Assembly: GCF_000212735.1 (NCBI RefSeq)
Contig: NC_015510.1
Coordinates: 7,069,001 to 7,133,000, forward strand
Source of the DNA: Haliscomenobacter hydrossis DSM 1100
GTDB lineage: Bacteria; Bacteroidota; Bacteroidia; Chitinophagales; Saprospiraceae
Length of the DNA stretch: 64,000 nucleotides
Direction of reading: 5' to 3'
Below the pieces are notes generated by a model. That model was not told the origin of the DNA, made no database searches, and worked only from the letters and a program-made list of their open reading frames with translations. The translations under genes were made by a program, and so were the position numbers. Below are positions 6,936 through 37,146 of this stretch, one piece after another. Each line of letters opens with the position of its first letter. The first letter of the stretch is position 1.

Positions 6936-7027
6936 GTTCGAAGTTCGGGGGTTCGGGGGTTCGAAGGTTGCACACAATTCTGCCCCAAACCCTCGAACCC
7001 CCAAACCCTCGAACCCTCGAACCCCCC
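6936..7027. repeat. GTTCGGGG tandem-repeat hairpin
   Basis: The left arm is four to five copies of an 8-nt unit (GTTCGAAG, GTTCGGGG), the right arm is the complement (ACCCTCGAACCCCC). They flank a short unrelated loop (CACACAATTCTG). The arms pair imperfectly. The element fills the space between the rpsO promoter and the stop codon of the dehydrogenase gene, both on the minus strand. Confidence 0.75.
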
Positions 7028-7792
7028 TCACAACATCATCCCACCCGAAACCTCGATGCGTTGGGCATTGATCCAGCGGGCATCCTCGGTACAAAGGAAA
7101 GCGACTACGCCGCCAATGTCTTCGGGTAGCCCGACACGGCTTAAGGCAGTAGCTGAAGCAATATTCGCGTTTAAGGCTGCATTGTCGCGTACAGCTCCTC
7201 CTCCGAAGTCGGTTTCAATGGCGCCCGGTGCAACTACATTGACCCGGATGCCTCGTACACCTAATTCTTTGGCCTGGTACTTGGTCAGGGTTTCGATGGC
7301 TCCTTTCATGGAAGCGTAAGCAGCATAGCCGGGGAAGGAGAACCGCGCCAGACCAGTCGAAATGTTGACGATACCTCCGCCGTCGTTGAGGAGCGGAAGG
7401 GCTTTTTGAGCCATAAAAAACCCACCTTTGAAGTGAATGTTCAACAAGGCATTGAATTGCTCTTCGGTGGTTTCAGCAAATGAGGCATGGATGCCGATTC
7501 CGGCGTTGTTGACCAAAAAATCGATTTTATCCCTATGGAATTGGGTATTCAGTATAGTACTCAACTGTGCAAAAAAGGCATCAAAACTTTTGCTCTCACC
7601 TACATTGAGGTGTAGCGCCGCCGCTTTTTGGCCCAAGGCTTCAATTTGTTGTACAACTTCGTGTGCTTCTGCTACCTTGCTCTGGTAAGTGATGATGACG
7701 TCAAGGCCCTTTTGGGCAAAGCGCAAAGCCATCTCCTTGCCGAGTCCACGGCTACCGCCCGTGATCAGCACAATTTTGTTTGTGGATGTCAT
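7028..7792 (-). CDS. SDR-family NAD(P)-dependent oxidoreductase
   Basis: This 254-residue protein is a classical short-chain dehydrogenase/reductase of the FabG-like type. It has the dinucleotide-binding motif TGGSRGLG (about residues 11-18), NNAG (about 92-95), the catalytic Ser in NISTG, the catalytic Tyr and Lys in YASMK (about 158-162), and a C-terminal segment ending in EVSGGMML. The substrate cannot be read from sequence. It lies directly downstream of an AraC-type regulator on the same strand, 107 nt apart, and its promoter is preceded by three 21-bp direct repeats, so control by that regulator is likely. A housekeeping FabG role is less likely given this setting. Confidence 0.9.
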   Translation of the reverse strand: MTSTNKIVLITGGSRGLGKEMALRFAQKGLDVIITYQSKVAEAHEVVQQIEALGQKAAALHLNVGESKSFDAFFAQLSTILNTQFHRDKIDFLVNNAGIGIHASFAETTEEQFNALLNIHFKGGFFMAQKALPLLNDGGGIVNISTGLARFSFPGYAAYASMKGAIETLTKYQAKELGVRGIRVNVVAPGAIETDFGGGAVRDNAALNANIASATALSRVGLPEDIGGVVAFLCTEDARWINAQRIEVSGGMML

Positions 7793-7818
7793 TGGTTGAT
7801 TTGTTTAAAATGATGCTG

Positions 7819-7848
7819 CAAAATTATGGGCAGCAGCGTCGGAAGTAA
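7819..7848 (-). promoter_or_regulatory. Promoter of the SDR gene (TAATTTTG, weak -33)
   Basis: Minus-strand TAATTTTG at 7819-7826 matches TAnnTTTG and lies 27 nt upstream of the start codon. Nineteen nt further upstream only TTTA is found, a poor -33, which suits an activator-dependent promoter. Confidence 0.6.
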
Positions 7849-7852
7849 ATGC

Positions 7853-7908
7853 GGGAATCAAACCAATAACTGCAAAAATCAAACATTAACTGCAAAAAAT
7901 CAAACATT
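7853..7908 (-). promoter_or_regulatory. Three 21-bp direct repeats: likely AraC-type operator
   Basis: Three copies of AATCAAAC(C/A)WTAACTGC follow each other; the invariant TCAAAC starts at 7858, 7879 and 7900, exactly 21 bp (two helical turns) apart. They begin a few bases upstream of the -33 region of the SDR promoter, where AraC-family activators bind. The distal copy overlaps the stop codon of the AraC gene. The 12-mer CAAAAATCAAAC of the middle repeat also occurs in the promoter of the AraC gene (8821-8832). Confidence 0.65.
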
Positions 7909-8808
7909 GGCTTTTTCGCGAAAAGTTTTGGGGGTGAGTTCCACCTGTTTTTTGAAGAAGTTGATGAAATGAGGGGATTCTTCGAAGCCCAAACTCCAGG
8001 CAATTTCTCCGATGTTCCAGGTGGTGTGGATGAGTAATGCCTTGGCTTCTTGAGCCACCCGTTCGGCAATCACTTGTGAGGTGGTTTTGCCCGTCGTTTC
8101 TTTCAGCGCGCGGTTGAGGTGATTGACGTGTACGGCCAATTGGGAAGCAAAATCCGTCGGTGAACGAAAAGCAATTTGTTGCCCACTCGATTCGATCGGA
8201 AACTGCCGTTCCAGCAACTCCGTAAACATCGAGGCAATGCGGGCTGCCCCGTTCGATGCCTCGTACAAGGAGGTTTTGGCGGGTTGCATTTTCAGTGCAG
8301 CGTGGATCAATTGCAGCACCAAAGTGCGCAGTACATCGTATTTGAAGGCAAAATCGGTGGCAATTTCTTTGTGCATTTGTTGGTAAATCAGTCGAATTGG
8401 CTCGACTTGATCTTCCGACAATTGGAACAGCGGATTGCCTCCCGGTTGGAAAACCGGATACTCCTTGATGTTGCCAAAATGGTTGAAAAATGCTTCGGTA
8501 AAAATGCAGAAATGCCCCGAATAGCCTGTCTCCAAAGGTTCCCATTTGTAAGGAATTTGAGGATTGGCAAAGAGTAGGGTAGGGCCATCGGTTTCGATGA
8601 CCTTATCGGCATAATGCGCACGGTTTTTGCCCAAAATGAAACTGATTTTGAAAAAATCCTTGCGGCTATAGGGCATGGGCTTGGCCTGTGGGCCAGAAAA
8701 GTCATCCAACCGGAATACATTGAAATGGCCGAGTTCCTTTTTCAGGTTTTCGGGCATCCAATTGGTTTTGGAGCGGTAGAAGTCTTCGACGCTTTCAGTT
8801 TTGTTCAT
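7900..8808 (-). CDS. AraC-family transcriptional regulator
   Basis: The 302-residue protein has an N-terminal cupin-like sensor half (about 20-170) and a C-terminal AraC/XylS DNA-binding domain (about 195-300). The second helix-turn-helix is clear: NIGEIAWSLGFEESPHFINFFKK followed by the VELTPKTFR ending of the family. The first helix-turn-helix is around FASQLAVHVNHLNRALKETTGK. The ligand is unknown. It probably activates the SDR gene directly downstream and may repress itself, because an operator-like 12-mer sits between the -33 and -7 elements of its own promoter. That promoter leaves almost no room for a leader. Confidence 0.9.
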   Translation of the reverse strand: MNKTESVEDFYRSKTNWMPENLKKELGHFNVFRLDDFSGPQAKPMPYSRKDFFKISFILGKNRAHYADKVIETDGPTLLFANPQIPYKWEPLETGYSGHFCIFTEAFFNHFGNIKEYPVFQPGGNPLFQLSEDQVEPIRLIYQQMHKEIATDFAFKYDVLRTLVLQLIHAALKMQPAKTSLYEASNGAARIASMFTELLERQFPIESSGQQIAFRSPTDFASQLAVHVNHLNRALKETTGKTTSQVIAERVAQEAKALLIHTTWNIGEIAWSLGFEESPHFINFFKKQVELTPKTFREKANV

Positions 8809-8812
8809 GGGG

Positions 8813-8842
8813 CAAAGTTACAAAAATCAAACCAGGATGCAA
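8813..8842 (-). promoter_or_regulatory. Promoter of the AraC gene (TTG, 19 nt, TAACTTTG) with embedded operator core
   Basis: On the minus strand TTG, a 19-nt spacer and TAACTTTG match the Bacteroidota consensus. Only four bases separate the -7 element from the ATG at 8808, so the transcript would be leaderless or nearly so. The spacer contains GTTTGATTTTTG, the core of the repeats upstream of the SDR gene. Confidence 0.65.
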
Positions 8843-8850
8843 TATTACAT

Positions 8851-9270
8851 TTACCCCGCGACCACATTCGCTTCCCAGGTAATTTTCGCCGTCTTCTCCA
8901 CAATCTTCGCTACTGAGCAATACTTCTCCATCGACATGTCTACGGCACGTTTGGCTTTGTCTACATCCAGGTCGCCGTACAAGTCAAACACGATGTGGAT
9001 GTCAGTAAATAGAGAAGGCGTTTTGTCTTTTTCCCGCTCCCCGTTGAGCGTCACTTTGATGTCTTGCAAAGGTTGGCGCATTTTGCGCAAGATGTCGATC
9101 ACGTCAATGGAACTACAAGCCCCCAAACTGCTGAGCAGCATTTCCATCGGGCGCATGCCACGGCCTCCACCGCCAATTGCAGGAGAAGCATCGGTTTCTA
9201 CACTATTTCCTTGTTCGTTGGTGGCCCGAAGATGAAAGGCATCGTCGAGGCGTTCGAGTTTGATGGTCAT
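8851..9270 (-). CDS. OsmC/Ohr-family peroxiredoxin-like protein
   Basis: From the ATG at 9270 the product is 139 residues, the normal OsmC length. OsmC/Ohr proteins reduce organic hydroperoxides with two cysteines; both are present, in LGACSSIDV (about residue 58) and MEKYCSVAK (about 123). An upstream start at 9372 would add 34 residues rich in Ser and Thr that are merely the translation of the adjacent tandem repeat, so I rejected it. The gene runs towards the AraC gene on the same strand and is separated from metX by a hairpin repeat. Confidence 0.9.
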   Translation of the reverse strand: MTIKLERLDDAFHLRATNEQGNSVETDASPAIGGGGRGMRPMEMLLSSLGACSSIDVIDILRKMRQPLQDIKVTLNGEREKDKTPSLFTDIHIVFDLYGDLDVDKAKRAVDMSMEKYCSVAKIVEKTAKITWEANVVAG

Positions 9271-9277
9271 AAATAAA

Positions 9278-9373
9278 GTTGAGGAGGTTGAGGAGGTTAA
9301 GGAGGTTGAGGAGGTTGAGGCTACCGCGAGCGCCATTGTCAAAATCGCTCGCGGTAGCCTCAACCTCCTCAAC
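9278..9373. repeat. GTTGAGGAG tandem-repeat hairpin with conserved core
   Basis: The left side has five copies of the 9-nt unit GTTGAGGAG (one reads GTTAAGGAG). The last 28 nt of it (9305-9332), ending in GGCTACCGCGAGCG, pair without mismatch with 9346-9373. The 13-nt loop is CCATTGTCAAAAT. The extra left-hand copies have no partner. The element lies between the metX stop and the OsmC start, both on the minus strand. Confidence 0.9.
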
Positions 9374-9396
9374 TTTCTAAACCACTCAACTCAAAT

Positions 9397-10503
9397 TTAA
9401 AATTTTTCCGAGCCCGGCAGCGCCACATTTGACACATTCCAGGCCTGTGAAGGACTGGGACTGGCGTCTATTTTGGCTTCTGGTGAAAAAAGAAATTGGC
9501 GAATGAGGGTTTCAATGCGTTGAAATTCAACCAAAAAACCATCATGTCCATAAATGCTTTCCAGCATGGTGTACTGCGCTCCCGTGATTCCTTTAGCAAT
9601 CTGCTCTTGCTCCCGGATCGGAAACAACAGATCCGTTTCGATCCCGATGACCAGGGTATTGGCCTTGACTTCGCGCAGCGCATTTTCTATTCCACCCCGC
9701 CCCCTGCCAACGTTATGGCTGTCCATGGCCCGGCTTAAAGTCAAATAAGAAAAAACATTAAAACGCTGCCAAAGTTTAAGTCCCTGGTAACGTTGGTACG
9801 AACTGGCGCGGAAACCGTCCAATTTCTCTTCCGAATCGGTTTGCGACAATTGATAAGTATCGTAGCTGCGGTAAGACAACATCGCGATGGACCGAGCAGT
9901 TTCCAAGCCCTTTTTACCTGCTTCTGGATGGCCTTCTTCCAAAAGGGTACTATCCGCATAAATGGCCATGCGCTGTGATTCGTTGAAAGCAATACCCCAG
10001 GGAGAATGTTGGGCATTGGTGGCCAGCAACACGATGTGCTCAAAAACGAGGGGTTGCTGAACGGCCCACTCCAGTACTTGTTGGCCACCCATCGAACCGC
10101 CCAGCGCCACCTGAATTTTTTCGATGCCCAATTCCACCCGCAACAACTCGTGTGCGGCAATCATGTCGCGTATACTCACCAGTGGAAAATCATGCCCATA
10201 AGGCTTTTGGGTAGCCGGATTGATGCTGGCTGGCCCGGTACTGCCGTAGCAGGAACCCAGCATGTTGGCACAAACAATGAAGTAATGTTCCGGGTCAAAA
10301 AGTTTGTCTACGCCTACGAGTCCATCCCACCAGTCAGCGGCTTCGGAGTTCCCGGTCAAGGCATGACAAACCCACACGACGTTGTCGCCCGCCGCGGAGA
10401 GTTGACCATAAGTATGATAAGCAATTTCGAGTTCAGGCAGCGTAGTGCCACATTCCAGTTGAAACGGTCGTGTGACCTTCCAGCGTTTGGGTGATTCGGC
10501 CAT
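9397..10503 (-). CDS. metX: Homoserine O-acetyltransferase
   Basis: MetX acetylates homoserine with acetyl-CoA, the entry step into methionine synthesis by direct sulfhydrylation. The 368-residue protein is an alpha/beta hydrolase with the nucleophile elbow GGSMGG (about residues 135-140), the substrate-binding motif MLGSCYGSTGP near residue 85, and the catalytic His in IYGHDGFLVE near residue 325. The MetX family may use acetyl or succinyl groups; acetyl is the usual activity for this type. Regulation is visible: a SAM-I-type riboswitch ends about 10 nt before the start codon, so high S-adenosylmethionine should turn the gene off. No other methionine gene lies nearby. Confidence 0.93.
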   Translation of the reverse strand: MAESPKRWKVTRPFQLECGTTLPELEIAYHTYGQLSAAGDNVVWVCHALTGNSEAADWWDGLVGVDKLFDPEHYFIVCANMLGSCYGSTGPASINPATQKPYGHDFPLVSIRDMIAAHELLRVELGIEKIQVALGGSMGGQQVLEWAVQQPLVFEHIVLLATNAQHSPWGIAFNESQRMAIYADSTLLEEGHPEAGKKGLETARSIAMLSYRSYDTYQLSQTDSEEKLDGFRASSYQRYQGLKLWQRFNVFSYLTLSRAMDSHNVGRGRGGIENALREVKANTLVIGIETDLLFPIREQEQIAKGITGAQYTMLESIYGHDGFLVEFQRIETLIRQFLFSPEAKIDASPSPSQAWNVSNVALPGSEKF

Positions 10504-10512
10504 TGATTTTTA

Positions 10513-10701
10513 GCGATTTTATATGCCCATTAATGGCGGGATTTGGCACCGTTACTTTTATTTAGTGAAAAGTGAAAAGTGAAAAGCGAAAAGCAGCTAA
10601 TCTTACTTTTCACTTTTCGCTTTTCACTTTTCGCTTAAAAAAGCATGGTTGCCAGAGGTTCTTAGAGCCCGTTCTCTCCCCTCTTCTCTATAAAATCACG
10701 C
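10513..10701 (-). promoter_or_regulatory. SAM-I (S-box) riboswitch of metX with repeat hairpin in P3
   Basis: Read on the minus strand, the metX leader contains the S-box landmarks in order: P1 5' strand GATTTTATA (10689-10697), then GAGAAGAGGGG, P2 with AGAG/CTCT and AGAGG/CCTCT pairing, CTGGCAACC, later GGTGCCAAATCCC, a P4 stem-loop (GCC ATTAAT GGGC) and P1 3' strand TATAAAATC (10515-10523), which is the exact complement of the 5' strand. CGGG in the P2 loop can pair with CCCG after GGTGCCAAAT as the family pseudoknot. P3 is extended by a 30-bp tandem-repeat hairpin (10564-10635), making the aptamer about 190 nt. P1 ends about 10 nt before the start codon and there is no poly-T tract, so control is probably translational. 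Confidence 0.85.
10564..10635. repeat. GTGAAAA tandem-repeat hairpin inside the SAM riboswitch
   Basis: Four copies of a 7-nt unit (GTGAAAA or GCGAAAA) form the left arm and their complements the right arm, giving 27 matches in 30 pairs around a 12-nt loop. The three mismatches are all T/C differences within the unit. The element lies between the CAACC and GGTGCC sides of riboswitch helix P3. Confidence 0.85.
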
Positions 10702-10728
10702 CTTTCGTGCAAGATGTGATTGAGGATG

Positions 10729-10759
10729 CAAAGTTAGGGTGCTGTTGGGAAATTTCAAA
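10729..10759 (-). promoter_or_regulatory. metX promoter (TTTG, 19 nt, TAACTTTG)
   Basis: Minus-strand TTTG (10756-10759) and TAACTTTG (10729-10736) are separated by exactly 19 nt, a perfect Bacteroidota vegetative promoter. Transcription would begin near 10722, about 20 nt before riboswitch helix P1. Confidence 0.8.
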
Positions 10760-10869
10760 CAGCAGAACAGAATTAGATTAAATAATTGTTAGTTGTCCTT
10801 TAGTGCTTGCTTAATTGCTGAAGACGCTGCATATTTACATTTTGTCTGAAAGCTGAAGGATCTTGTACG

Positions 10870-11820
10870 ATGAGTAAAAAAAGAAGAGTCATCTTTATTG
10901 ACAACACCCATCCTTTTCTTTTTCAACGCCTTACAGAGTTGGGTTTTTCTTGTGAAGCGCATTACAGCACCTCACGGGAAGAAATATTGAACCAGATGAG
11001 CGATTGCTTTGGGTTGGTCTTGCGCAGTCGTTTGCGGATTGATGCGGCGTTTTTGGCGCGTGGAAATGAGCTGGCCTTTGTAGCCCGCAGTGGAGTAGGG
11101 CTGGAACACATCGATATTGAAACTGCTGAACAACGGGGAGTACAAGTCCTGAGTTCACCGGAAGGAAGCCGTGATACGGTAGCTGAGCACGCCATTGGCA
11201 TGTTGTTGATGCTGATGAACAACCTGGGCCTGGCCGATCGACAAATCCGCGCTGGTCGCTGGGTACGCGCCGCCAATCGGGGCATTGAAATCAAGGGAAA
11301 AACCATTGGCATCATTGGTTATGGAAACATGGGTTCGGCTTTTGCCCAAAAAATCAGCGGTTTTGGTGCGCGACTGATTGCTTACGACAAATTCAAGTCG
11401 AACTATGCCGATGCATTGGTCAGCGAAGTCAGCCTGGAGCAGGTATGGGCCGAAGCGGACATTGTCACTTTACACATTCCGTACCTGCCCGAAAACTACC
11501 ACTTTGTCAATGACGCTTTTTTGCAGCGCTTTCAAAAGCCGATTTTTTTGGTCAACACCGCCCGTGGAACGATACTGAATACGGTCGATTTGGTGAAAAA
11601 CCTCCAAACAGGTAAGGTCTTGGGTGCGGCGCTGGATGTGTTTGAATACGAGGAACAATCCTTCGAAAACCTCAAACCCACTGAACTCCCTGAACCCTTT
11701 CAATACCTGCGCAGTGCCGACAATGTGGTGCTGACGCCCCATTTGGGTGGCAGTTCAGTGGAATCAAACGAAGGCCATGCCAGGGTTTTGGCTGAAAAAA
11801 TTGAAAAGTTATTCTGTTGA
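10870..11820 (+). CDS. D-2-hydroxyacid dehydrogenase (phosphoglycerate dehydrogenase-like)
   Basis: The 316-residue protein is a D-isomer-specific 2-hydroxyacid dehydrogenase. The NAD-binding motif GIIGYGNMG lies at about 140-148, the catalytic Arg in NTARGTILN near 232, and the catalytic His in LTPHLGGSS near 290; SRDTVAEHAIGMLL is the usual interdomain helix. It is of the short SerA-like type without C-terminal ACT domain, so it may act on 3-phosphoglycerate or on another 2-hydroxyacid; the substrate is not decided by sequence. It ends 5 nt before the SNF2 helicase start, suggesting co-transcription, although the two functions have no evident link. Confidence 0.85.
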   Translation: MSKKRRVIFIDNTHPFLFQRLTELGFSCEAHYSTSREEILNQMSDCFGLVLRSRLRIDAAFLARGNELAFVARSGVGLEHIDIETAEQRGVQVLSSPEGSRDTVAEHAIGMLLMLMNNLGLADRQIRAGRWVRAANRGIEIKGKTIGIIGYGNMGSAFAQKISGFGARLIAYDKFKSNYADALVSEVSLEQVWAEADIVTLHIPYLPENYHFVNDAFLQRFQKPIFLVNTARGTILNTVDLVKNLQTGKVLGAALDVFEYEEQSFENLKPTELPEPFQYLRSADNVVLTPHLGGSSVESNEGHARVLAEKIEKLFC

Positions 11821-11825
11821 GAAAT

Positions 11826-14780
11826 ATGCAATTGTTTTCAAATACGGCAGAGGCAATCGGCAAACACGAGGTCGTCTACAACCTGATGGAGGTAGCTGAA
11901 GGCACGTATTTGCCCAATGCCTATATTGTAAGTGTAGATCAGGACGGTTTTTTGGCCCACATTCGCCAAAAAGCCCTGGACGATACCATTGGGGCTTTTA
12001 AACTGGAGTTGGACAATACGCGGGCCAAATTGTTCAACATCATCGAAGAGTTGCAGCCCAAACACCTGGAGAAAAAATACAGCCCGCCCAAGAAGAAAGT
12101 CAAGCCCATTGAGGAATTATTGGCAGATAAAGACATTCAGCCCGTTTTGCTCAACTTCGTACACCGCAAACTGGACGAATTATTGGTTGTGGTGGTAGAG
12201 CAGCAACTGCCGCTCACCTGGAATGTTGACCGCCGGGGTCTGGTCAAGGATTTTGTGATGCAATTGCCCCAAAAAGACGCAGAACTGGACGTGCATTTGT
12301 ATTTTAATAAAACGAAAGACAACGTTCAATACCGTTTCCAATTGAGTGAAGGGGAGGAAAAACCCTGGGTCGTAAGCTCCAAAGAAGTAGTGCCCATCAC
12401 CAATCACCCGGCCTGGTTGTTTGTGGATTTCCGCCTCTGCAAAGTGGCTGACATCAACGGCAACATGGTCAAACCTTTCCAAAAGCGCGATGAAGTCATC
12501 ATCCCGGCCAATTCAGTGAAGACCTATTTCCAAAAGTTCATCCTGAAAGTTGCCGCCAAAGTTGACATTGAGGCCGAAGGTTTCGACGTCGTGGTTTGGG
12601 AGGAATTGACCGCTTGCCAATTGGAAATTGTCCCTAGTGTATTCAATGGCGACTGGGTTTTGGCCATGCAAATGCTGTATCCCCAAGCCGCGTTTATCTG
12701 GAACGACCGCCGGATGAAACGCACTTCGCTGGAATTTGGCGAAAACGACGTGCGTATCCATCAAGTACGCCGCAATCTGGAGCAGGAAAAACGCTACGTC
12801 AAAAGTATAAAAGCCCTCGGCCTCCACAACCCTGAGGCTTCTTATTTTACCACAATCGAAGCCAGCCGCGACCCCTTTAACTTGTTGAATTGGCTGCTTG
12901 AGCATCGTCCGGAATTGGAAAAAGCTGGATTCAAGGTACTCCCCGTACAACTCGAGGAGAAAAAGGTGTACCTGGCCAAGGCCCAGCTCAGCATCCATTC
13001 CGAACGCATCAACGACTGGTTTGACATCTACGGCGAGGTGCAAGTGGGCGAATTCAGCATCCCCTTTCTGGCCCTGGCGCGCAACATCCGCGAAGAAAAC
13101 CGCTTCTACGCGCTGCCCAATGGGGAATACTTCGTCATTCCCCTGGAGTGGATGGAAAAATTTCGTGCACTGATGCAATTTGCCCGCAAAGAAGGCAACG
13201 CCTTGCGGCTCAACAAAAGCCAGTACACCCTGGTCGACGAGTTGGGAATTGCCCAAAAATCCGGCCCAGTAGAGGAGGTTACCGATTTGGCGGATTATGT
13301 GCCCGGCTCCAAATTAAAAGCCGATCTCCGCCCTTACCAATTGGACGGCGTGCGCTGGCTCATCAAGCTGTACCGCAATGAATTGGGAGCTTGTTTGGCC
13401 GACGACATGGGTTTGGGTAAAACCCTACAGACCATTTCGGTACTGCTGTACGCCAAGGAGCAAAAAGCCGCCCTTCCTGATGGATCGGGTACGGGCAATC
13501 AGTTGGATATGTTTTCCGAAGTTGCCGGAGATGAAGAGTTTTTGCAAGCGCTCAATGCCTTGATCGTCTTGCCCGCTTCGCTGGTCTTCAACTGGGAAAG
13601 TGAGCTGAAAAAATTTGCACCCTCCCTTTCAATTTACAAACACGTAGGCCAACGGCGGTACGATGACATCCGTTTGTTGCGGCGCTTTGACGTGATTTTA
13701 ACCACCTACCAAACTGCCTTGCGCGACGAAGCCTTGCTGATGCAAATGGAGTTTGAGTACATCATCTTGGATGAAAGCCAACAGATCAAAAACCGGGAGA
13801 GTAAAATTTTCCAGTCGGTACACGATTTGCGGGGCAAACACCGGGTTTCCCTTTCGGGTACACCCATCGAGAACTCCCTAAGCGATCTTTGGGCGCAAAT
13901 GCAGTTCATCAACCCTGATTTGTTGGGCAATTATTCGTTTTTCAAACGCGAGTTCATTACCCCGATTGAAAAATACCAGATCGAGGACAAGAAAATCCGC
14001 TTGCGCAACCTCGTGGCACCCTACATGTTGCGCCGCACCAAGGAAGAGGTCGCCAAAGACTTGCCCCCGCTGACTACGCAGGTGTTCTACTCGGAAATGA
14101 CGCCCGAGCAGAAAAAAATGTACGAGCGTGAAAAAAGCGCCGCCCGGAATTTCCTCCTGGAAAACTACGACGAAAACAGCCCGCAATACCGCATTCTGGT
14201 GCTGCAATCCCTGACCAAATTGCGCCAATTGGTCAACCACCCGCGTTTGATCTCGGAGGAATACACCAAAGAAAGTGGCAAGTTCAATGACATCTTGCAG
14301 CAATGGGATACCATCCGGCGCAGTAACCACAAAGCGCTGTTTTTTAGCTCTTTTGTGCAATACCTGAACCTGTTTCGTGAAGAATTCCAGCAGCGCAAGC
14401 AGCAGTTCTCCTGGCTGACCGGTGATCTTACGGCCAACAAACGGGTGGAAGAAATCAAAAAATTTGAAGAAAACGCCGAGGTGCAATCTTTCCTGATCTC
14501 CATCAAATCGGGGGGCACGGGCCTCAATTTGACTGCCGCCGACTACGTCTTCATCCTCGATCCCTGGTGGAACCCCACCACCGAGCAACAGGCGATAGCA
14601 CGCGCACACCGGATCGGCCAGGAAAAAAGTGTGATTGCCATCAAGTTCATCACCAAAGACAGCATCGAGGAAAAGATCCTGAAACTACAGGATAGAAAGT
14701 CCAAACTAGCCGAGGACATCATTGAGAATGTGAATCGGGCGGAGTTCTCACGGGGGGATATTGAGTATTTGTTGGAGTAG
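11826..14780 (+). CDS. SNF2-family DNA-dependent ATPase (DEAD/DEAH helicase-like)
   Basis: This roughly 984-residue protein has a complete SNF2 motor in its C-terminal half: motif I DDMGLGKT (about 526), motif II DESQ (about 650), motif III SGTPIENSLSDLW (about 675), motif V GGTGLNLTAADYV (about 895) and motif VI QAIARAHRIGQ (about 920). The 500-residue N-terminal half is not a zinc-finger SWIM domain that I can recognise. Bacterial SNF2 proteins such as RapA remodel RNA polymerase or DNA-protein complexes; the exact role here is unknown. A TTG at 11817 overlaps the previous stop; the ATG at 11826 is preferred. The product lies directly upstream of a restriction-modification pair, but base composition differs sharply between them. 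Confidence 0.9.
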   Translation: MQLFSNTAEAIGKHEVVYNLMEVAEGTYLPNAYIVSVDQDGFLAHIRQKALDDTIGAFKLELDNTRAKLFNIIEELQPKHLEKKYSPPKKKVKPIEELLADKDIQPVLLNFVHRKLDELLVVVVEQQLPLTWNVDRRGLVKDFVMQLPQKDAELDVHLYFNKTKDNVQYRFQLSEGEEKPWVVSSKEVVPITNHPAWLFVDFRLCKVADINGNMVKPFQKRDEVIIPANSVKTYFQKFILKVAAKVDIEAEGFDVVVWEELTACQLEIVPSVFNGDWVLAMQMLYPQAAFIWNDRRMKRTSLEFGENDVRIHQVRRNLEQEKRYVKSIKALGLHNPEASYFTTIEASRDPFNLLNWLLEHRPELEKAGFKVLPVQLEEKKVYLAKAQLSIHSERINDWFDIYGEVQVGEFSIPFLALARNIREENRFYALPNGEYFVIPLEWMEKFRALMQFARKEGNALRLNKSQYTLVDELGIAQKSGPVEEVTDLADYVPGSKLKADLRPYQLDGVRWLIKLYRNELGACLADDMGLGKTLQTISVLLYAKEQKAALPDGSGTGNQLDMFSEVAGDEEFLQALNALIVLPASLVFNWESELKKFAPSLSIYKHVGQRRYDDIRLLRRFDVILTTYQTALRDEALLMQMEFEYIILDESQQIKNRESKIFQSVHDLRGKHRVSLSGTPIENSLSDLWAQMQFINPDLLGNYSFFKREFITPIEKYQIEDKKIRLRNLVAPYMLRRTKEEVAKDLPPLTTQVFYSEMTPEQKKMYEREKSAARNFLLENYDENSPQYRILVLQSLTKLRQLVNHPRLISEEYTKESGKFNDILQQWDTIRRSNHKALFFSSFVQYLNLFREEFQQRKQQFSWLTGDLTANKRVEEIKKFEENAEVQSFLISIKSGGTGLNLTAADYVFILDPWWNPTTEQQAIARAHRIGQEKSVIAIKFITKDSIEEKILKLQDRKSKLAEDIIENVNRAEFSRGDIEYLLE

Positions 14781-14912
14781 GGATGAGTGAAATTTGGGGT
14801 GGATGAATTGAAAACATAACGCATGTAGGAAAACTGTGTGCAAAGAGTAAAAAGGAATGAAAAGGTTGGGAATTGATGTTAATTTTACTTGACTATCAGA
14901 AAACAAATTTAA

Positions 14913-24186: not shown

Positions 24187-24197
24187 AAGTAGACGTC

Positions 24198-26477: not shown

Positions 26478-26716
26478 ACCGCAGAGTAAAGGAGTATACG
26501 CAGAGTTTCGCGGAGTTTTTTTAGGTGCACCTGCGGTGCAGAGAGGCCCCAGAGTTCGCCATTACTGAAGCTTGGTTCATTACCCTTTGTCAAACATAAT
26601 ACTTGTTTTTAGGCAAGATCTTCCTGGAGTTCGAACTCCAGCCAACGCAGGTGGCAAACTCCTTAATACTAAAAAAACTCCGCGAAACTCTGCGTGTACT
26701 CCGTTCACTCTGCGGT
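26478..26716. repeat. Nested palindromic element of about 240 bp
   Basis: The outer arms (26478-26523 and 26670-26716) are about 46 bp long and match at roughly nine of ten positions; they start ACCGCAGAGT and contain ACGCAGAGTTTCGCGGAG. Inside, CACCTGCG pairs with CGCAGGTG, AGGTGCACCT is a palindrome, and CTGGAGTTCGAACTCCAG (26624-26641) is a perfect 18-bp palindrome. No open frame is present. The remaining bases of the 517-nt spacer (26307-26823) hold the operon terminator and the promoter of the next gene. Confidence 0.85.
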
Positions 26717-31358: not shown

Positions 31359-31587
31359 GGTTAAATTGAATTGTTTATGCAGTTATATAAAAACCCGCAT
31401 TGCGTCTTTTCACTTAGTCCTTAGTTGCGGGTAAGTTCGCTTACACCGCATATCATTTTCTTTCGGCTACGTGGTTTATGTACGCGGTACTATAATTACC
31501 TTACCTGCGAATATAGCAAGCGATTGTTTATCAGACAAGTAATTATCTATTAAATTATAAAATCATCAATCAGGCTTTTGGCTCTAC

Positions 31588-32685
31588 CTACCCAATCTTC
31601 CCATCCTCCACCACAAAACGCCGATACTCCACCCCAAACTGCGCCACTATCTCCGCAATCCTTGTCTCATGTGTATCCGTAATAAAAATCTGCCCAAACT
31701 GCCCCTCAGTAAGCAAGCGCAGGAGGTGCGTCACGCGCTGTGCATCCAGCTTATCAAACAAGTCATCGAGGAGCAAAATGGGCGGAACCGCTTTGTTTTG
31801 CCGCAGCATTTCGTACTGCGCCAGTTTGAGTGCCAGCAAAAAAGACTTGAGCTGCCCTTGGGAGCCGAATTTTTTCAGGGGATGTTCGCCCAGGCTAAAC
31901 ACCAGGTCATCGCGGTGGATGCCTTTGGTGGTGCGCTGCAAGGCAAGGTCGCGTTGGCGGCTGTTGGCCAGCAAGTCCCCCAGGTCGTTTTCCAGCAATT
32001 GAGACTCATAGGTGAGTTGAACTTCTTCTCCCCGGCCAGAGATGTACTGGTGGGTAGATTGGAAAATGGCGGTGAATTTTTGCGCAAATTTTGCCCTTTG
32101 CTCCAACACGTACAGCGCGGGGTCAATCAACTGTTCGTCGTACACGTCTAGCAAGCTCAGGTTGCCGCCGCTGCGTTCGGCCAGGTTCTTGAGCAGCGCG
32201 TTGCGTTGATGCAGCACCTTGTTGTAGGCAATCAGTTCGTAGAGGTAGCGTTGGTCCAGTTGGGAGAGGGTGTTGTCCAAAAAACGGCGGCGCTCTTCGC
32301 TGCCTTCCCGGATGAGTTGAATGTCGTCGGGGCCGATGAACACCACGGGCAACAAGCCGATGTGCTCGGCCAGTTTGGCGTAGGCCACATCGTTGCGCTC
32401 CAGTTCTTTGAGTTTGCGGGGCATGACCTTGGCGACAATCTTCTCTTTTTTGCCGTGCAGGACAAAGTGGCCTTCCAAACGGAAAAACGCCTCATGGTGT
32501 CGTGCAATGGCGTTATCCGTTAAATTGAAATGGCTTTTGGCCATACACAGGTAATAAATGGCATCGAGCAGGTTGGTTTTGCCCATACCGTTGTTGCCAA
32601 CCAGGCAATTGAGCCGGGGAGAGCAGTCAAGTTTTTGATTTTCGTAATTTTTAAAATTAGCTAAAGCAATGCGTTCGAGATACAT
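31588..32685 (-). CDS. recF: DNA replication and repair protein RecF
   Basis: RecF is an SMC-like ATPase that loads RecA at single-strand gaps through RecO and RecR. The 365-residue protein has Walker A GNNGMGKTN (about 30-38), the ABC signature region GSQGQLKSFLLALKLAQ (about 270-286) and Walker B PPILLLDDLFDKLD (about 297-310). The length is that of the family. It is isolated from dnaA and dnaN and is divergent from pdhA across a spacer with two tandem-repeat hairpins. Confidence 0.95.
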   Translation of the reverse strand: MYLERIALANFKNYENQKLDCSPRLNCLVGNNGMGKTNLLDAIYYLCMAKSHFNLTDNAIARHHEAFFRLEGHFVLHGKKEKIVAKVMPRKLKELERNDVAYAKLAEHIGLLPVVFIGPDDIQLIREGSEERRRFLDNTLSQLDQRYLYELIAYNKVLHQRNALLKNLAERSGGNLSLLDVYDEQLIDPALYVLEQRAKFAQKFTAIFQSTHQYISGRGEEVQLTYESQLLENDLGDLLANSRQRDLALQRTTKGIHRDDLVFSLGEHPLKKFGSQGQLKSFLLALKLAQYEMLRQNKAVPPILLLDDLFDKLDAQRVTHLLRLLTEGQFGQIFITDTHETRIAEIVAQFGVEYRRFVVEDGKIG

Positions 32686-32706
32686 TGGGTGTGAACTTTA
32701 CTGAAT

Positions 32707-32817
32707 AGGTTGAGGAAGGTTGAGAGAGGTTGAGGAGGTTTAGGCTACCGCAGCGACTTTGACAATGACGCTGCGGTAGCCTAAACCTCCTCAACTTCTC
32801 TCAACCTTCCTCAACTT
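32707..32817. repeat. GTTGAGGA tandem-repeat hairpin with conserved core
   Basis: Left arm 32707-32755 and right arm 32769-32817 pair over 48-49 bp with about one or two mismatches, around the 13-nt loop ACTTTGACAATGA. Units vary (GTTGAGGAA, GTTGAGAGA, GTTTAGG) and each variant is matched in the opposite arm. The core GGCTACCGCAGCG and a loop complementary to that at 9333 show it is the same family in inverted orientation. It lies between divergent recF and pdhA. Confidence 0.9.
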
Positions 32818-32849
32818 TATGGCATTTCGGGCGTTGAAGGTAAAATAAA

Positions 32850-32946
32850 AAGTTGAAGAGTTGAAGCGTTTAAAAGTTGAAAGGAGAACTACAGATGGGT
32901 GCTATCCCTCTTTTCAACTTTTCAACTTCTAAACTTTTCAACTTTC
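32850..32946. repeat. GTTGAAAA tandem-repeat hairpin
   Basis: The left arm has four 8-nt units (GTTGAAGA, GTTGAAGC, GTTTAAAA, GTTGAAAG), the right arm four to five complements (TTTTCAAC, TTCTAAAC). They pair imperfectly around a loop of about 25 nt (ACTACAGATGGGTGC). It follows the GTTGAGGA element in the same divergent spacer and ends just before the pdhA promoter. Confidence 0.75.
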
Positions 32947-32957
32947 CTTTGAAGATA

Positions 32958-32965
32958 TATATTTG
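32958..32965 (+). promoter_or_regulatory. -7 element of the pdhA promoter (TATATTTG)
   Basis: TATATTTG matches TAnnTTTG and lies about 60 nt before the ATG of pdhA. At the -33 distance only TTT of the hairpin arm is present, so the repeat element may supply the upstream part of this promoter. Confidence 0.5.
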
Positions 32966-33027
32966 CCTTATCTTTAGCTCGACTATTCAACAAACATAGC
33001 GAAGATTCGCTAAAACATGCAGTGCAC

Positions 33028-34065
33028 ATGGATTCGGTTGTAGAAAAGAAAGCATCAGCAAAAAAACGCAGCAATCAAGTTACCTACAGCAAAGAGCAGT
33101 ACCTTTTTTGGTATGAGTTGATGCTGCGCATCCGCCGTTTTGAAGAACGCGCGCTGATGATGTATGGACAGCAAAAGATTCGCGGTTTCTGTCACGTGTA
33201 CATTGGCCAGGAAGCGATCGCTGCCGGCATTGAATCGGCCATCACCAAGCAGGATGGCATTGTTACGGCATATCGCCAGCACGGTATTGCCCTGGGTAGA
33301 GGCGTGACTTCCCGCGAAGTCATGGCCGAACTCTACGGCAAATCAACCGGGATTGTCAAAGGCAAAGGAGGCTCCATGCACTTTTTCGACGCCCGCAACA
33401 AATATTTTGGAGGCAACGGGATTGTTGGTGCCCAAATTCCGATTGGTACCGGGATTGGTTTTGCCGAAAAATACAAAGGCACCCAAAACTTCTGTGTCAC
33501 CATGTTTGGCGACGGAGCATCCCGGCAAGGGGCTTTGTACGAGTCTTTCAACATGGCCATGACCTGGAAACTGCCCGTGTTGTACATCGTTGAAAACAAC
33601 GGTTACGCCATGGGAACTTCTGTAGAGCGGACGTCCAACGTCGAAGAACTGTGGAAAATCGGGCTCAGCTTCGAAATGCCCAGTGAATCGGTAGATGGCA
33701 TGAGTCCTGAATCGGTACACGAAGCCATTTCCCGCGCTGCCGAGCACATCCGCGCAGGCAAGGGGCCATATTTCCTGGAAATTCGCACTTACCGCTACAA
33801 AGGCCACTCGGTTTCCGATCCGGCTAAATACCGCACCAAAGAGGAGGTTCAAGCTTATCAGGACCGCGACCCGATCAAAGTGACCGAGGACAAAATTGTC
33901 TCTGGAAAAATTGCGACGGCAGAAGAAATTCAGGCCATCAAGGATAAAATTAAAGCAGAGATTGAGGACGCGGTTCAATTCGCGGAAGACTCTCCTTATC
34001 CCGATGCTTCGGAGCTGTTCACCGACAATTATACCGATACGGATTATCCGTACATCAAGTATTGA
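33028..34065 (+). CDS. pdhA: Pyruvate dehydrogenase E1 component, alpha subunit
   Basis: The 345-residue protein is the alpha subunit of a thiamine-diphosphate-dependent 2-oxoacid dehydrogenase E1, which decarboxylates pyruvate and passes the acetyl group to E2 lipoate. The ThDP/Mg motif starts at GDGASRQGALYESF and ends in VENNGYAMG (about 165-195); YRQHGIALGRGV and KGGSMHFFD are family landmarks; the phosphorylation-loop region YRYKGHSVSDPAKYR is present. The ATG at 33028 is preferred to the GTG at 33022. The beta subunit and E2 are not adjacent, so the complex is encoded elsewhere. A perfect terminator follows. Confidence 0.92.
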   Translation: MDSVVEKKASAKKRSNQVTYSKEQYLFWYELMLRIRRFEERALMMYGQQKIRGFCHVYIGQEAIAAGIESAITKQDGIVTAYRQHGIALGRGVTSREVMAELYGKSTGIVKGKGGSMHFFDARNKYFGGNGIVGAQIPIGTGIGFAEKYKGTQNFCVTMFGDGASRQGALYESFNMAMTWKLPVLYIVENNGYAMGTSVERTSNVEELWKIGLSFEMPSESVDGMSPESVHEAISRAAEHIRAGKGPYFLEIRTYRYKGHSVSDPAKYRTKEEVQAYQDRDPIKVTEDKIVSGKIATAEEIQAIKDKIKAEIEDAVQFAEDSPYPDASELFTDNYTDTDYPYIKY

Positions 34066-34093
34066 GCAGCACATGTAGTGCTGCTCCCCAAGG

Positions 34094-34131
34094 ATACGGC
34101 GGTACCAATGTGGCTACCGCCGTATTTTTTT
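34094..34131 (+). terminator. Rho-independent terminator of pdhA
   Basis: ATACGGCGGTA and TACCGCCGTAT form a perfect 11-bp stem around a 10-nt loop, followed by seven T. It begins 29 nt after the stop codon. Confidence 0.95.
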
Positions 34132-34136
34132 GTCGG

Positions 34137-34294
34137 AGGAACGGAATGAAATAAAATTACAAAGTTGGCTCGGCTATTTTTTGATTTGGCAAGGCGTGAG
34201 GAAGGCGCATAGCTAGCCTACGTAACTGACGAATAACGCAGCAAAATCAAAAAAGAGCCCAGGCAGGATGTAATTTTATTTCATTTCCGTTCCT
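34137..34294. repeat. Hairpin repeat of about 158 bp (AGGAACGGAA type)
   Basis: Outer arms 34137-34160 and 34270-34294 match over 24 bp with a single inserted base (AGGAACGGAATGAAATAAAA side). Inside, TTTTTTGATTT pairs with AAATCAAAAAA, and the centre holds GCGTGAGGAAGGCGCATAGC...CTACGTAACTGACG. It lies between the pdhA terminator and the promoter of the TPR gene, has no coding frame, and resembles in size and design the element at 48276. Confidence 0.8.
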
Positions 34295-34322
34295 TAAATA
34301 GGGGGGGAAACAAAACTTTATT

Positions 34323-34330
34323 TATTTTTG
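34323..34330 (+). promoter_or_regulatory. -7 element of the TPR-gene promoter (TATTTTTG)
   Basis: TATTTTTG lies about 100 nt before the start codon. A -33 TTG is not visible at the right distance (a run of G is there instead). Confidence 0.4.
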
Positions 34331-34431
34331 CGTCCCGAAGCGCATGTTTGGATGCTCAGCTCGCTCATTTTTGCTTGCAAAACAAAAATCCAAACCTGCG
34401 CCGAGAGATAACCAGCTAACTTATATAGAAA

Positions 34432-35151
34432 ATGGCAAAAGGAAGACAGGTGCGTAAGGTCGCTTCTCCTAAGGCTGCTACTCGGCCAGAAGACGAAGTT
34501 TTAGTGGACATTGTAGAGGTACGCGACCGTGCACAGGACACGTTGAATCGTTTTCGTAAACCTTTGATGATCGCAGGCGGTGCCTTGTTGGTGCTGATAA
34601 TAGGCTTAATCGCGTGGAAGTTGTACGTGAATGCACAGCAAAAAGACGCTGTTGAGCAAATGCGCCAAGCCGAACGTTTGTTCGAGCGCGACTCTTTTGC
34701 TGTAGCCATGTTGACTACCTTACCCGGTGGTTTCAAAGGCTTTCCCAAAATCATTGAAGATTTTCCTGGCACTCCAGCCGCAAACCTGGCGAATTATTAC
34801 TCGGGGGTTTGTTTGCTGAACCTGGGCAAATACGAAGCAGCCATCAGTTACCTGAAGGATTTTAGTGCAAAAGGCGCCATAATGCCCATCATGAAAAATG
34901 GTGCACTAGGCGATGCTTATTCGGAGCTTAAAGACTTCGCTCAAGCAAAGAGCTACTACAAAAAAGCAGTAAACGTTACTAAAAACGACATGCTCACTCC
35001 TTTTTACCTCAAGCGTCTGGCGATGCTGGCCGAAATGGAAAAAGATTACGCTGCTGCACGTGACTACTACCAGGAGTTGAAAGATGAGTATCCAAGTGCC
35101 CCAGAAGGCCAGGATGCTGAAAAATATTTGATCTATTTGGAAGGAAAATAA
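34432..35151 (+). CDS. Tetratricopeptide-repeat inner-membrane protein
   Basis: The 239-residue protein has a charged N-terminus (1-42), one transmembrane helix (about 43-65, PLMIAGGALLVLIIGLIAW) and a periplasmic region with TPR motifs (about 120-235; NYYSGVCLLNLGKYEAAISYL, GDAYSELKDFAQAKSYYKKA, DYAAARDYYQEL). The layout resembles the YfgM type of membrane-anchored TPR scaffold linked to the Sec translocon, but the sequence alone does not prove that role. It has its own promoter and is followed by a tandem-repeat hairpin. Confidence 0.85.
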   Translation: MAKGRQVRKVASPKAATRPEDEVLVDIVEVRDRAQDTLNRFRKPLMIAGGALLVLIIGLIAWKLYVNAQQKDAVEQMRQAERLFERDSFAVAMLTTLPGGFKGFPKIIEDFPGTPAANLANYYSGVCLLNLGKYEAAISYLKDFSAKGAIMPIMKNGALGDAYSELKDFAQAKSYYKKAVNVTKNDMLTPFYLKRLAMLAEMEKDYAAARDYYQELKDEYPSAPEGQDAEKYLIYLEGK

Positions 35152-35221
35152 TCTTTTCCAAGGGTCACTTTGTTTGTGGAAAGGTAAGGAGGCTAGGTGG
35201 CTTTCTTACCTTTTTTTGTTC

Positions 35222-35320
35222 GGAGGTTCGTGGGTTCGTGGGTTCGTGGGTTAAACGGGTCGCTGAGCGAAGTTTAACTCCCGAACCCTCGAACTCCCGA
35301 ACCCCCGAACCCCCGAACTC
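35222..35320. repeat. GTTCGTGG/GTTCGGGG tandem-repeat hairpin
   Basis: The left arm has three copies of GGTTCGTG and ends GGGTTAAAC; the right arm starts GTTTAAC and runs through five or six copies of CCCGAACC/CTCGAACT. The tip TCGCTGAGCGA is a small hairpin. T in the left units stands opposite C-derived G in the right, so RNA pairing would use G-U wobbles. It lies 16 nt before the ribH start and would add a spurious Pro/Ser-rich N-terminus if translated. Confidence 0.8.
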
Positions 35321-35336
35321 TTTAAACCTAACAAAA

Positions 35337-35855
35337 ATGGCCAGCGCCCTCAAAAACTTATCTCAATACGACGAAAACGCCCTGCCTTCCGCCGCAGACT
35401 TGCGTTTTGGCATCGTAGTAGCCGATTGGAATGCCCAGATTACCCACGCTTTGTACCAGGGTTGTTTGGAAACCTTACTCAAGCATGGGGCAAAAGAAGA
35501 AAACATCCACATGATCCAGGTGCCAGGGTCATTTGAGTTGCCTGCGGGTGCTCGTTTGTTGGCTGGTGCCCACAAACTGGATGCCATCGTTGCCATTGGT
35601 TGTGTCATCAAAGGGGAAACCAACCACAATGAATACATCAACAACAGTGTGGCCCTGGGATTGACAAATCTGGGTGTTGCGACCAATATTCCTTGTATTT
35701 TTGGCGTGTTGACGCCCAATGACGAACAACAGGCCCTTGACCGTGCGGGGGGCAAACACGGCAACAAAGGAATTGAAGCTGGCGTTACCGCCATTCGAAT
35801 GGCCGCGTTGAAGCAGGCCTTGCAAAAAGGGGAAAAAGGGAAAATTGGATTTTAA
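35337..35855 (+). CDS. ribH: 6,7-dimethyl-8-ribityllumazine synthase
   Basis: RibH condenses 5-amino-6-ribitylaminouracil with 3,4-dihydroxy-2-butanone 4-phosphate, the penultimate step of riboflavin synthesis. From the ATG at 35337 the product has 172 residues. Landmarks are GIVVADWNAQITHALYQG, the phosphate- and substrate-binding VPGSFELPAGARLL, and AIGCVIKGETNHNEYI with the catalytic His. A start at 35238 is rejected because its extra 33 residues come from the repeat element. RibH lies 14 nt upstream of ribBA, which supplies its butanone substrate. No FMN riboswitch is visible in the leader. Confidence 0.95.
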   Translation: MASALKNLSQYDENALPSAADLRFGIVVADWNAQITHALYQGCLETLLKHGAKEENIHMIQVPGSFELPAGARLLAGAHKLDAIVAIGCVIKGETNHNEYINNSVALGLTNLGVATNIPCIFGVLTPNDEQQALDRAGGKHGNKGIEAGVTAIRMAALKQALQKGEKGKIGF

Positions 35856-35869
35856 ATACCCAAAGCAAC

Positions 35870-37012
35870 ATGGAAACTCAGACCATTGATACCATTCAAC
35901 TCAATACTGTTGAAGAAGCCGTAGCGGCCATCCGCAACGGAGAAGTCATCATTGTAGTGGATGATGAAGACCGGGAAAACGAAGGCGATTTTATTTGTGC
36001 CGCAGAAACGGTTACGCCGGAAATCATCAACTTTATGGCGACGCATGGACGGGGACTGATTTGTACCCCCATCGATGAACGTCGCGCCGATGAGCTTGAC
36101 TTGCCGATGATGGTCTCTTCCAATACTGCTCTGCACGAGACCGCCTTTACGGTTTCCATCGATTTAATTGGCCAGGGTTGTACTACGGGGATTTCGGCCT
36201 ATGATCGGGCCACGGGCATCCGGGCCTTGGTGAACCCCGCTACTACGAGTACCGATTTTGCTCGTCCGGGGCACATTTTCCCCCTGCGGGCCAAGCAGGG
36301 AGGCGTTCTTCGCCGTACAGGCCATACCGAGGCGGCCATCGATTTGGCGCGGATGGCGGGGCTGTATCCGGCGGGGGTACTGGTCGAAGTACTCAATGAA
36401 GATGGAACGATGGCGCGTTTGCCCCAGTTGCTCAAGATTGCGGAACGTTTTGGGCTAAAAATCATTTCGATCGATGACCTGGTGGCGTACCGGATGCAAA
36501 CCGAGCGCCTGGTGAAGCGGGCTACTTCGGTACAATTGCCCACCCGTTTTGGTGACTTCGAAATCATTGCTTTTGAACAAATACCCGGTGGCGATGTCCA
36601 CCTGGCATTCAAACATGGCAACTGGGATCAGGATGAACCGGTATTGGTTCGGGTACACTCTTCATCCGAAGCTGGAGACATCATCGGCAATTTGTTTGAT
36701 GATCAGGCACTCCACCACCGCCAGGCCATTGAAGCCATTCAAAAGGAAGGCAAAGGTTTGGTGCTGTTCATGCGCCAGTCCGAGAAAGGGGATGCAGCAT
36801 TGCTTGCGGCATTGCAACAGCTGAAAGTACAACAGGAACAAGGCAAAGAAATGAAAATACCCACGATAATGACCCAACGCGATTTTGGGGTGGGGGCGCA
36901 GATTTTGCGCGATCTGGGGGTGTGTAAGTTGCGGCTGCTCACCAATCATCCCCGGCGTAGAGTGGGCTTGATCGGGTATGGATTGGAGATTGTGGAGAAT
37001 GTACCTTTTTGA
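35870..37012 (+). CDS. ribBA: RibBA-type protein: active DHBP synthase with degenerate GTP cyclohydrolase II domain
   Basis: The 380-residue protein joins a 3,4-dihydroxy-2-butanone 4-phosphate synthase domain (about 10-208) to a GTP cyclohydrolase II-like domain (about 215-380). The first is intact: VDDEDRENEGD with the acidic metal and substrate ligands, and GHTEAAIDLARMAG. The second keeps the fold landmarks (RDFGVGAQILRDLGV, RLLTNHPRR, IVENVPF) but lacks the three zinc cysteines: where active enzymes read HSECLTGD...RCDCG, this one has HSSSEAGD...LFDD, and the catalytic RQEGRGIGL stretch reads RQSEKGDAAL. So it is predicted to make only the butanone phosphate, and a separate RibA would be needed. 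It forms an operon with ribH. Confidence 0.9.
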   Translation: METQTIDTIQLNTVEEAVAAIRNGEVIIVVDDEDRENEGDFICAAETVTPEIINFMATHGRGLICTPIDERRADELDLPMMVSSNTALHETAFTVSIDLIGQGCTTGISAYDRATGIRALVNPATTSTDFARPGHIFPLRAKQGGVLRRTGHTEAAIDLARMAGLYPAGVLVEVLNEDGTMARLPQLLKIAERFGLKIISIDDLVAYRMQTERLVKRATSVQLPTRFGDFEIIAFEQIPGGDVHLAFKHGNWDQDEPVLVRVHSSSEAGDIIGNLFDDQALHHRQAIEAIQKEGKGLVLFMRQSEKGDAALLAALQQLKVQQEQGKEMKIPTIMTQRDFGVGAQILRDLGVCKLRLLTNHPRRRVGLIGYGLEIVENVPF

Positions 37013-37014
37013 GA

Positions 37015-37146
37015 AGTTGAGGAGGTTGAGAAGGTTGAGGCTACCGCGAGCGATTTAGACAAATCTTTATGTGACATAGTTTTTCTTTTGTCAAAATCGC
37101 TCAAATGTCGCTCGCGGTAGCCTCAACCTTCTCAACCTCCTCAACT
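37015..37146. repeat. GTTGAGGAG tandem-repeat hairpin with perfect 38-bp stem
   Basis: 37015-37052 and 37109-37146 are exact complements over 38 bp: units GTTGAGGAG, GTTGAGAAG, then GTTGAGGCTACCGCGAGCG. The GTTGAGAAG variant in the left arm is matched by CTTCTCAAC in the right. The loop is 56 nt and contains TTTTGTCAAAATCGCT, related to the short loop of the element at 9278. It separates the convergent ribBA and PorP-like genes and may terminate both. Confidence 0.95.

Follow-up and report, generated by a model that had tools for sequence, protein, structure and literature searches.

Repeat families in the spacers of bacterial genomes are usually pictured as one sequence each, present at many places. 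Among the closest described systems are repetitive extragenic palindromic (REP) sequences, bacterial interspersed mosaic elements (BIMEs) and REPINs, the last being inverted doublets that form hairpins with compensatory changes (PMC3116915). Together with the REP-associated tyrosine transposases (RAYTs) these appear, in the excerpts of PMC3116915 and PMC3733652 used here, as numerous short palindromic extragenic hairpins that are apparently mobile and fall into several sequence groups per genome. Alike in these respects is a set of long hairpins with tandemly repeated arms that an earlier note pointed out in a 64,000-nucleotide stretch of the chromosome of Haliscomenobacter hydrossis DSM 1100 (positions 7069001-7133000 of the main contig, hereafter the window; genome size 8.77 Mb). 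These are likewise extragenic, palindromic and of high copy number, with 110 in the 1.264 Mb formed by the window and three genome blocks. They differ from REPs and REPINs in that their arms are tandem arrays of 7-10-base words separated by gaps that vary, that sites change family between sister species, that further palindromes are nested at the apex and that no linked RAYT was seen, none of seven candidate genes being flanked by a tandem-word hairpin within 1.5 kb.

The hairpin and double-hairpin elements of organelles, as described in excerpts of PMC2800124 and PMC7218506, are also mobile-looking, intergenic and variable between close relatives, are tolerated inside structural RNA genes and, as far as these excerpts go, have no known enzyme either; the double-hairpin work on Allomyces enters here through its citation in those papers. 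The present elements lie instead in a bacterial chromosome, where about a dozen word families co-exist, and show tandem-word arms and apex nesting. Cyanobacteria harbour very small mobile repeats (small dispersed repeats) associated with tandem 7-mers, a further likeness, and miniature inverted-repeat transposable elements (MITEs) are short, non-autonomous and bounded by inverted-repeat ends. Some of the present families resemble MITEs in having conserved outer ends (TTTCACCAC, AATGGGARCGCGG), whereas no parent transposon was found in 1.664 Mb (the above plus a fourth block, 19% of the genome), no target-site duplication was recognised and end length varies in the GTT families. A literature search of open-access papers returned nothing recognised as these elements, which are filed here under the working label of non-autonomous mobile palindromes and not as members of the REPINs or MITEs.

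We put at roughly 60% the probability that the hairpins make up a large population of tiny mobile DNA elements, non-autonomous and with fast turnover. This reading rests on their abundance, the inward polarity of their arms, their nesting, the occupation of one site by different words in different relatives, vocabularies that are species-specific, short empty sites and the absence of strand bias among stem mismatches. Hairpin and place recur here while the spelling changes between sister species, a riboswitch included. Such sites form a natural series in which to study the spread of tiny palindromes, the reasons for their presence in hairpin loops and the agent that moves them, and they warn that structure kept without sequence need not mean conserved RNA function.

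Abundance, polarity and nesting

Hairpins were detected as inverted repeats scoring at least 15 and classed as tandem where a word recurred at 6-12 base steps in both arms, with one dinucleotide shuffle per block as control; genes were called with a home-made caller in the first 1.264 Mb and not in the last 0.4 Mb. There were 237 such inverted repeats in the 1.264 Mb and none in the shuffles, which gave 25 scoring 12-14. Arms of tandem words were present in 110 of the 237, a low count because this strict detector misses half of the window elements named in the earlier note: those at 10564, 32707 and 37015 were recovered fully and that at 9278 mostly (as 9295-9384), three of eight plus a partial fourth, while those at 1, 6936, 32850 and 35222 are visible by eye and carry too many mismatches for the cut. 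Across the genome, 461 matches to the pattern GTTGAGGAGGTTGAGG were found at up to 2 mismatches, against 30 for the reversed control. Neither a lack of further copies nor an equal frequency in shuffled sequence, the outcomes that the note had set against its own proposal, was thus observed.

The 110 tandem hairpins comprise about a dozen word families, namely GTTCG (27), GTTGAGG (19), GCGGATT (14), CACAGATT (11), CACAAAG (8), ACGACG (8), GTGAAAA (7), CAGC (5), GTTGAA (4), GCAGAGTTT (2) and TTTTAG (1), with 4 belonging to no family. The design ascribed to the named spacers, inverted arrays of a tandem unit, can be read directly there with the units given for them, and the copy at 6307 is indeed degenerate; the definition of the unit as purine-rich and starting with GT was too narrow, as CACAGATT, CACAAAG, GCGGAT, ACGACG and CAGC have the same design. 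When arrays of at least two words were located by word alone, 107 inward pairs were found against 1 outward and 10 direct pairs. A further 159 arrays had no partner within 200 bases, 70 of them from CAGC, a weak word set.

Ninety-three of the tandem hairpins lie in spacers and 17 were called inside or at the ends of genes. All three spacer orientations are used, as the note had it, with divergent spacers under-used (7 observed, 20 expected) relative to convergent (27 and 17) and co-directional ones (59 and 56; chi-square p 0.0007). In the 72 co-directional cases the median distance is 12.5 bases from the upstream stop to the hairpin and 70.5 from the hairpin to the following start, and 59 are nearer the stop.

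Loops and cores are common to distant copies, in both orientations. The core GCTACCGC and its complement are paired at 30 places in the 1.664 Mb, with a flanking stem scoring at least 10 in 23, and across genomes this core recurs, slightly changed, inside GTTGAGG, GTTGAA, GATGA, AATGAAA and GAGTTTTGAAGTG arms. A second core, GGTCRCCGAGCGRAGYCGAGGTG, has a flanking stem scoring at least 8 in 16 of 28 copies, in nearly fixed register, compared with 19 of 5000 random places; these stems are of GTTCG, GTTGAA, GTTTTAG and GTTGAGG types, apart from two (223343 and 1009447) that are none of these. One copy of GGTCRCCGAGCGRAGYCGAGGTG lies within GCTACCGC within GTTGAGG arms, giving three levels, and the CACAGATT elements at 1050850 and 1148389 lie inside a CCCGCCTGCGGCGG palindrome. 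At two sites the core GCTACCGC is present in one related genome, G002, where another, G001 (at one of them also a third, G004), combines the same arm word with a different loop. A separate count of 25 outer stems was not used as evidence of nesting, since at least 14 of them are the same array running past a mismatch.

Some further arrangements were seen around such elements. CACAAAG elements at genome positions 1121302, 3074452 and 3313360 lie within an outer palindrome containing ATCCCGAATTTTT, and in G001 a similar palindrome adjoins a remnant CAGC arm. At 3347916-3348070 three left arms of a CACAGATT element stand in tandem, followed by one right arm, and a nested pair lies close by at 3344713.

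Shared sites and species vocabularies

The congeners G002 and G004 are sisters (about 91% coding identity), each at about 86% to G001, and all three at about 79% to the window genome; the congener genomes are drafts in which contigs may break at repeats. Using flanking sequence, 48 spacers in six stretches were mapped to three congeners. With a laxer hairpin detector, a tandem hairpin was found in the congener in 24 of 60 tests where the window genome has one and in 3 of 66 where it has none (Fisher p 8e-7). In the 24 shared-site pairs, read by eye, the word was the same in 3 (9278 twice, 32707 once), GTTCG against GTTCC in 4 and different in 17, at least one of the 17 being a pair of neighbouring words (GTTGAA and GTTGAG, at 1145969 in G002). 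Between the sisters, 14 tandem hairpins of G002 were mapped in G004, four non-tandem rows of 18 being left out: 5 are the same element, 7 have another word, one has the same word type with another loop and one faces a palindrome of another type. Empty sites in relatives leave 2, 8, 17 or 27 bases between the mapped flanks.

The window elements, given here without strand, illustrate these outcomes. The GTTGAGGAG-family hairpin at 9278-9392, with the inner core GCTACCGCGAGCG, has counterparts of the same family in G001 and G004 and an empty site in G002 and a fourth congener, G003; loss in G002 is the simplest reading, because its sister G004, G001 and the window genome all carry the family. The GTTGAGG-family hairpin at 32707-32817 (core GCTACCGCAGCG) is matched by the same family in G001 and G004 and by a CAGC-family hairpin in G002, whose edges, by eye, keep possible remnants of GTTGAG arms, while the GTTGAA-family hairpin nearby at 32850-32945 is absent from this place in G001, G002 and G004. 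Directly behind a terminator-like stem with a T-run lies a GTTCG-family hairpin (35222-35320); its site holds a GTTGAAAT hairpin in G002 and a hairpin with a mixed GTTCG/GTTCC arm in G004, and is empty in G001. A GTTGAGG-family hairpin with core GCTACCGCGAGCG (37015-37147) fills a convergent spacer and has a counterpart of the same family in G004. Two further GTTCG-family hairpins lie at 1-55, cut by the window edge and complete in the genome, where it starts 13 bases earlier (7068988), and at 6936-7026, with a loop, GCACACAATTCTGCCC, that recurs with changes in six other GTTCG elements. A degenerate GTTGAA/GCTGAA-type array with a weak inverted partner was read directly at 6302-6402, and a related hairpin absent from the earlier note, with two words CGCAGAGTTT per arm and hence below the tandem cut, at 26491-26703.

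One site lies inside a structured RNA. Rfam places an S-adenosylmethionine (SAM) riboswitch aptamer (RF00162) on the minus strand at 10516-10696 (66.3 bits, cut-off 44.4), preceding an alpha/beta hydrolase gene. Its P3 apical loop is filled by a GTGAAAA-family hairpin (10557-10643), beneath which P3 stands in the predicted fold. The P3 loops of G001, G002 and G004 each contain another, unrelated hairpin and that of G003 is a plain 26-base segment, and no 10-mer is common to any pair of the five loops. The riboswitch was found in 38 of 60 related genomes, and the listed aptamers outside the four congeners range from 96 to 125 bases, with two exceptions of 144 and 166. The 166-base aptamer (locus L392, genome G346), from another family of the same order, likewise contains a long purine-rich hairpin within the P3 loop. 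GTGAAAA arrays are present in G001, G002 and G004; in a 296-genome sample of the phylum, from which the congeners are absent, no genome other than the window genome carries GTGAAAA hairpins.

Vocabularies differ between species. Arrays of at least three GTTCG words number 63 in 1.25 Mb of the window genome and none in samples of G001 (111 kb), G002 (195 kb), G004 (177 kb) and G003 (57 kb), samples chosen around places matching the window genome and not at random. GTTCC arrays number 13 in the G004 sample and are absent from the other samples, G002 is where GATGA is commonest, and GTTGAG, GTTGAA and GTGAAAA are common to several species. CACRGATT hairpins gave 59 pattern matches (overlaps counted) in the whole window genome and none in 118 other related genomes, the four congeners included. 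The CACAGATT hairpin, by comparison, was present in at least 108 stretches of a species collection. Among the 80 matches listed, 58 are Bacteroidota, Bacteroides and Flavobacterium isolates among them, and the other 22 are contigs filed under other phyla, all metagenome-assembled and possibly misbinned; many of the 22 inspected of these 80 have mirrored gaps and the outer end CCACAGATT. This patchy distribution suggests transfer or a repeated start of the same word.

Possible mobility, rewriting and templating

Each element is a palindrome with tandem-word arms that point to the apex, where a second or third palindrome, the core, is often nested. Copies would spread as whole hairpins, presumably moved by an enzyme acting in trans; a transposase is possible. 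Entry would be at tolerant places, just behind stop codons and in the apical loops of existing hairpins, whether one another's or that of the riboswitch, and gain, loss and regain at the same places could then replace one hairpin by another with a new word. The earlier note had likewise proposed one kind of process whatever the unit, a view strengthened by the layout, the polarity and the sites common to different families. Convergent arms of nine word families lying 200-4000 bases apart gave 6 pairs in the 1.664 Mb, one of which spans a gene and is read as two neighbouring elements. The element at 592727 has ATTATTT on both flanks, and its kin lack this flank repeat. As regards carriage by phage, three hairpin patterns had no match in viral contigs.

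Several observations weigh against mobility. The 1.664 Mb yielded neither a transposase nor a longer parent element with the same ends, no link of Y1 transposase-like genes to the hairpins was seen in their 1.5-kb flanks, and visual comparison with relatives at about 79% identity showed no recognisable target-site duplication. Twelve of the 28 copies of GGTCRCCGAGCGRAGYCGAGGTG are without a flanking stem, 8 of them in a cluster near 355 kb. Copies that share a loop differ in the gap bases between their words, and these bases are often mirror-matched between the two arms, a pattern not expected from plain copying of a parent. Three of the listed CACAGATT contigs are filed under Saprospiraceae, and absence of this hairpin from the relatives of the genome is therefore incomplete. 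Finally, shared sites could also stem from an old inherited hairpin rewritten in place.

Such rewriting, in which the site would stay while replication errors (slippage, also of two-unit blocks, and fold-back templating) made the words of its arms drift or switch, is judged unlikely. It is consistent with sites being shared far more than words, with the riboswitch loop hairpin differing among the window genome, G001, G002 and G004 when other listed aptamers are mostly short, and with the mixed GTTCG/GTTCC element of G004 at 35222. Slippage, one of the mechanisms offered in the earlier note, is seen in some arms: at genome 1056644-1056900 one arm has about 17 near-identical GTTGATGAAG units, also in keeping with rewriting, and the other is shorter and differently spelled (G002 and G004 have an AAGGTG hairpin at this site), and in one G002 element four GATGAAA units face four GATGAGA units across the two arms. 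Across seven families, however, neighbouring units are not more alike than composition predicts, which speaks against single-unit slippage as a general source. In GTTCG (0.29 vs 0.16) and GTTGAGG (0.38 vs 0.11) a unit resembles the next but one more than its neighbour, as rewriting of two-unit blocks would have it.

Hairpin-templated copying, also offered in the note, found mixed support. In-register unit identity between own arms exceeded all 300 partner swaps in GTTGAGG (0.42 own, 0.24 swapped), CACAGATT (0.43, 0.10) and GCGGATT (0.86, 0.53), three of seven families, with a weaker excess in GTTCG (0.43, 0.32), but lay within the swap range in CACAAAG (0.64, 0.40), GTGAAAA (0.86, 0.92) and GTTGAA (0.25, 0.15). 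This test supersedes an earlier mirror test by local alignment, which ignores register and in which GTTCG scored 0.71 own against 0.72 other, GTGAAAA scored lower with its own partner and small excesses were seen elsewhere. Ten sets of orthologous copies, each from two or three species, were compared over base pairs chosen by RNAalifold, which favours paired columns; 535 pair comparisons were unchanged and 9 gapped. One-sided changes numbered 56 (37 between Watson-Crick and G.U, 19 leaving a mismatch) and two-sided changes 20, of which 13, from Watson-Crick to Watson-Crick, would fit rewriting. The predominance of one-sided changes means that continuous arm-to-arm correction is not visible and counts against both copying in established elements and rewriting; a renewed matching of the arms at some births is suggested by the mirrored differences among copies that have a loop in common. 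Also at odds with rewriting are the empty sites, the cores and loops common to distant copies, and the many copies of one word in a genome with none in congener samples, which local rewriting does not give.

A quite unlikely variant is that a trans-acting machinery adds hairpins of repeated words at the apices of DNA hairpins already present, with a species-specific template setting the word. One arm would be laid down as tandem words and the other made by fold-back copying, and the whole hairpin vocabulary of a species would change together, somewhat as the telomerase template sets the telomere word. Such a process is hinted at by the inward polarity, by gaps mirrored in copies with a common loop, by shared sites whose words are species-specific and by the near-fixed core register; no candidate enzyme or template for word-writing was found.

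Possible RNA function and Y1 transposase genes

It is very unlikely that the hairpins are functional RNA, that is, stem-loops at 3' ends acting as terminators or stabilisers, with structure selected and sequence free. Their position close behind stops, the depletion of divergent spacers and the 37 G.U against 19 mismatch changes among one-sided orthologous differences would fit such a role, the last on pairs favoured by the fold, for which reason a strand-symmetry test was applied to the RNA question. Selection for pairing in the transcript would predict more G.U than A.C mismatches; on the transcribed strand of the 72 co-directional tandem hairpins there were 40 G.U and 49 A.C (p 0.40), equally common, and this prediction was not borne out. 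Mismatches are few, at 123 of 2340 stem positions in these 72, with detection favouring good stems, and the stems have the look of DNA palindromes that started out well matched and are now decaying. A T-run outside the stem accompanies just 12 of the 110 tandem hairpins and 9 of the 127 others, in line with the statement of the earlier note that these are not simply terminators. With no strand bias and so few T-runs, RNA selection and termination are poor explanations of the hairpins; many orthologous sites are, moreover, empty, and the hairpin at 35222 sits behind a separate terminator-like stem. Both the terminator and the RNA-stabiliser readings are accordingly disfavoured by T-run scarcity and mismatch symmetry.

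A REPIN system in which the Y1 transposases of the genome move the hairpins is similarly improbable: the genome has seven Y1 transposase-like genes, three of them adjoining other palindromes of REP-like look, and REPINs too are hairpin-forming inverted doublets with compensatory changes, but the 1.5-kb flanks of all seven contain other palindromes or none in place of tandem-word hairpins, and REPINs as described in the excerpt of PMC3116915 have one conserved REP per end, beside a RAYT, and not variable tandem words.

The palindrome CTACAAACGTGTGACCTCTCCGAGGTC, possibly a REP partner, comes after a Y1 transposase-like gene at genome 7331205-7331800 (L093), and two other such genes (L094, 2122; L095, 1134) lie beside palindromes containing CCCCGAAGGGGTG. 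In the window, a non-tandem palindromic element of about 160 bases with ends AGGAACGGAA and TTCCGTTCC (34145-34286) has many copies, at 82-91% identity, elsewhere in the genome and in the congeners.

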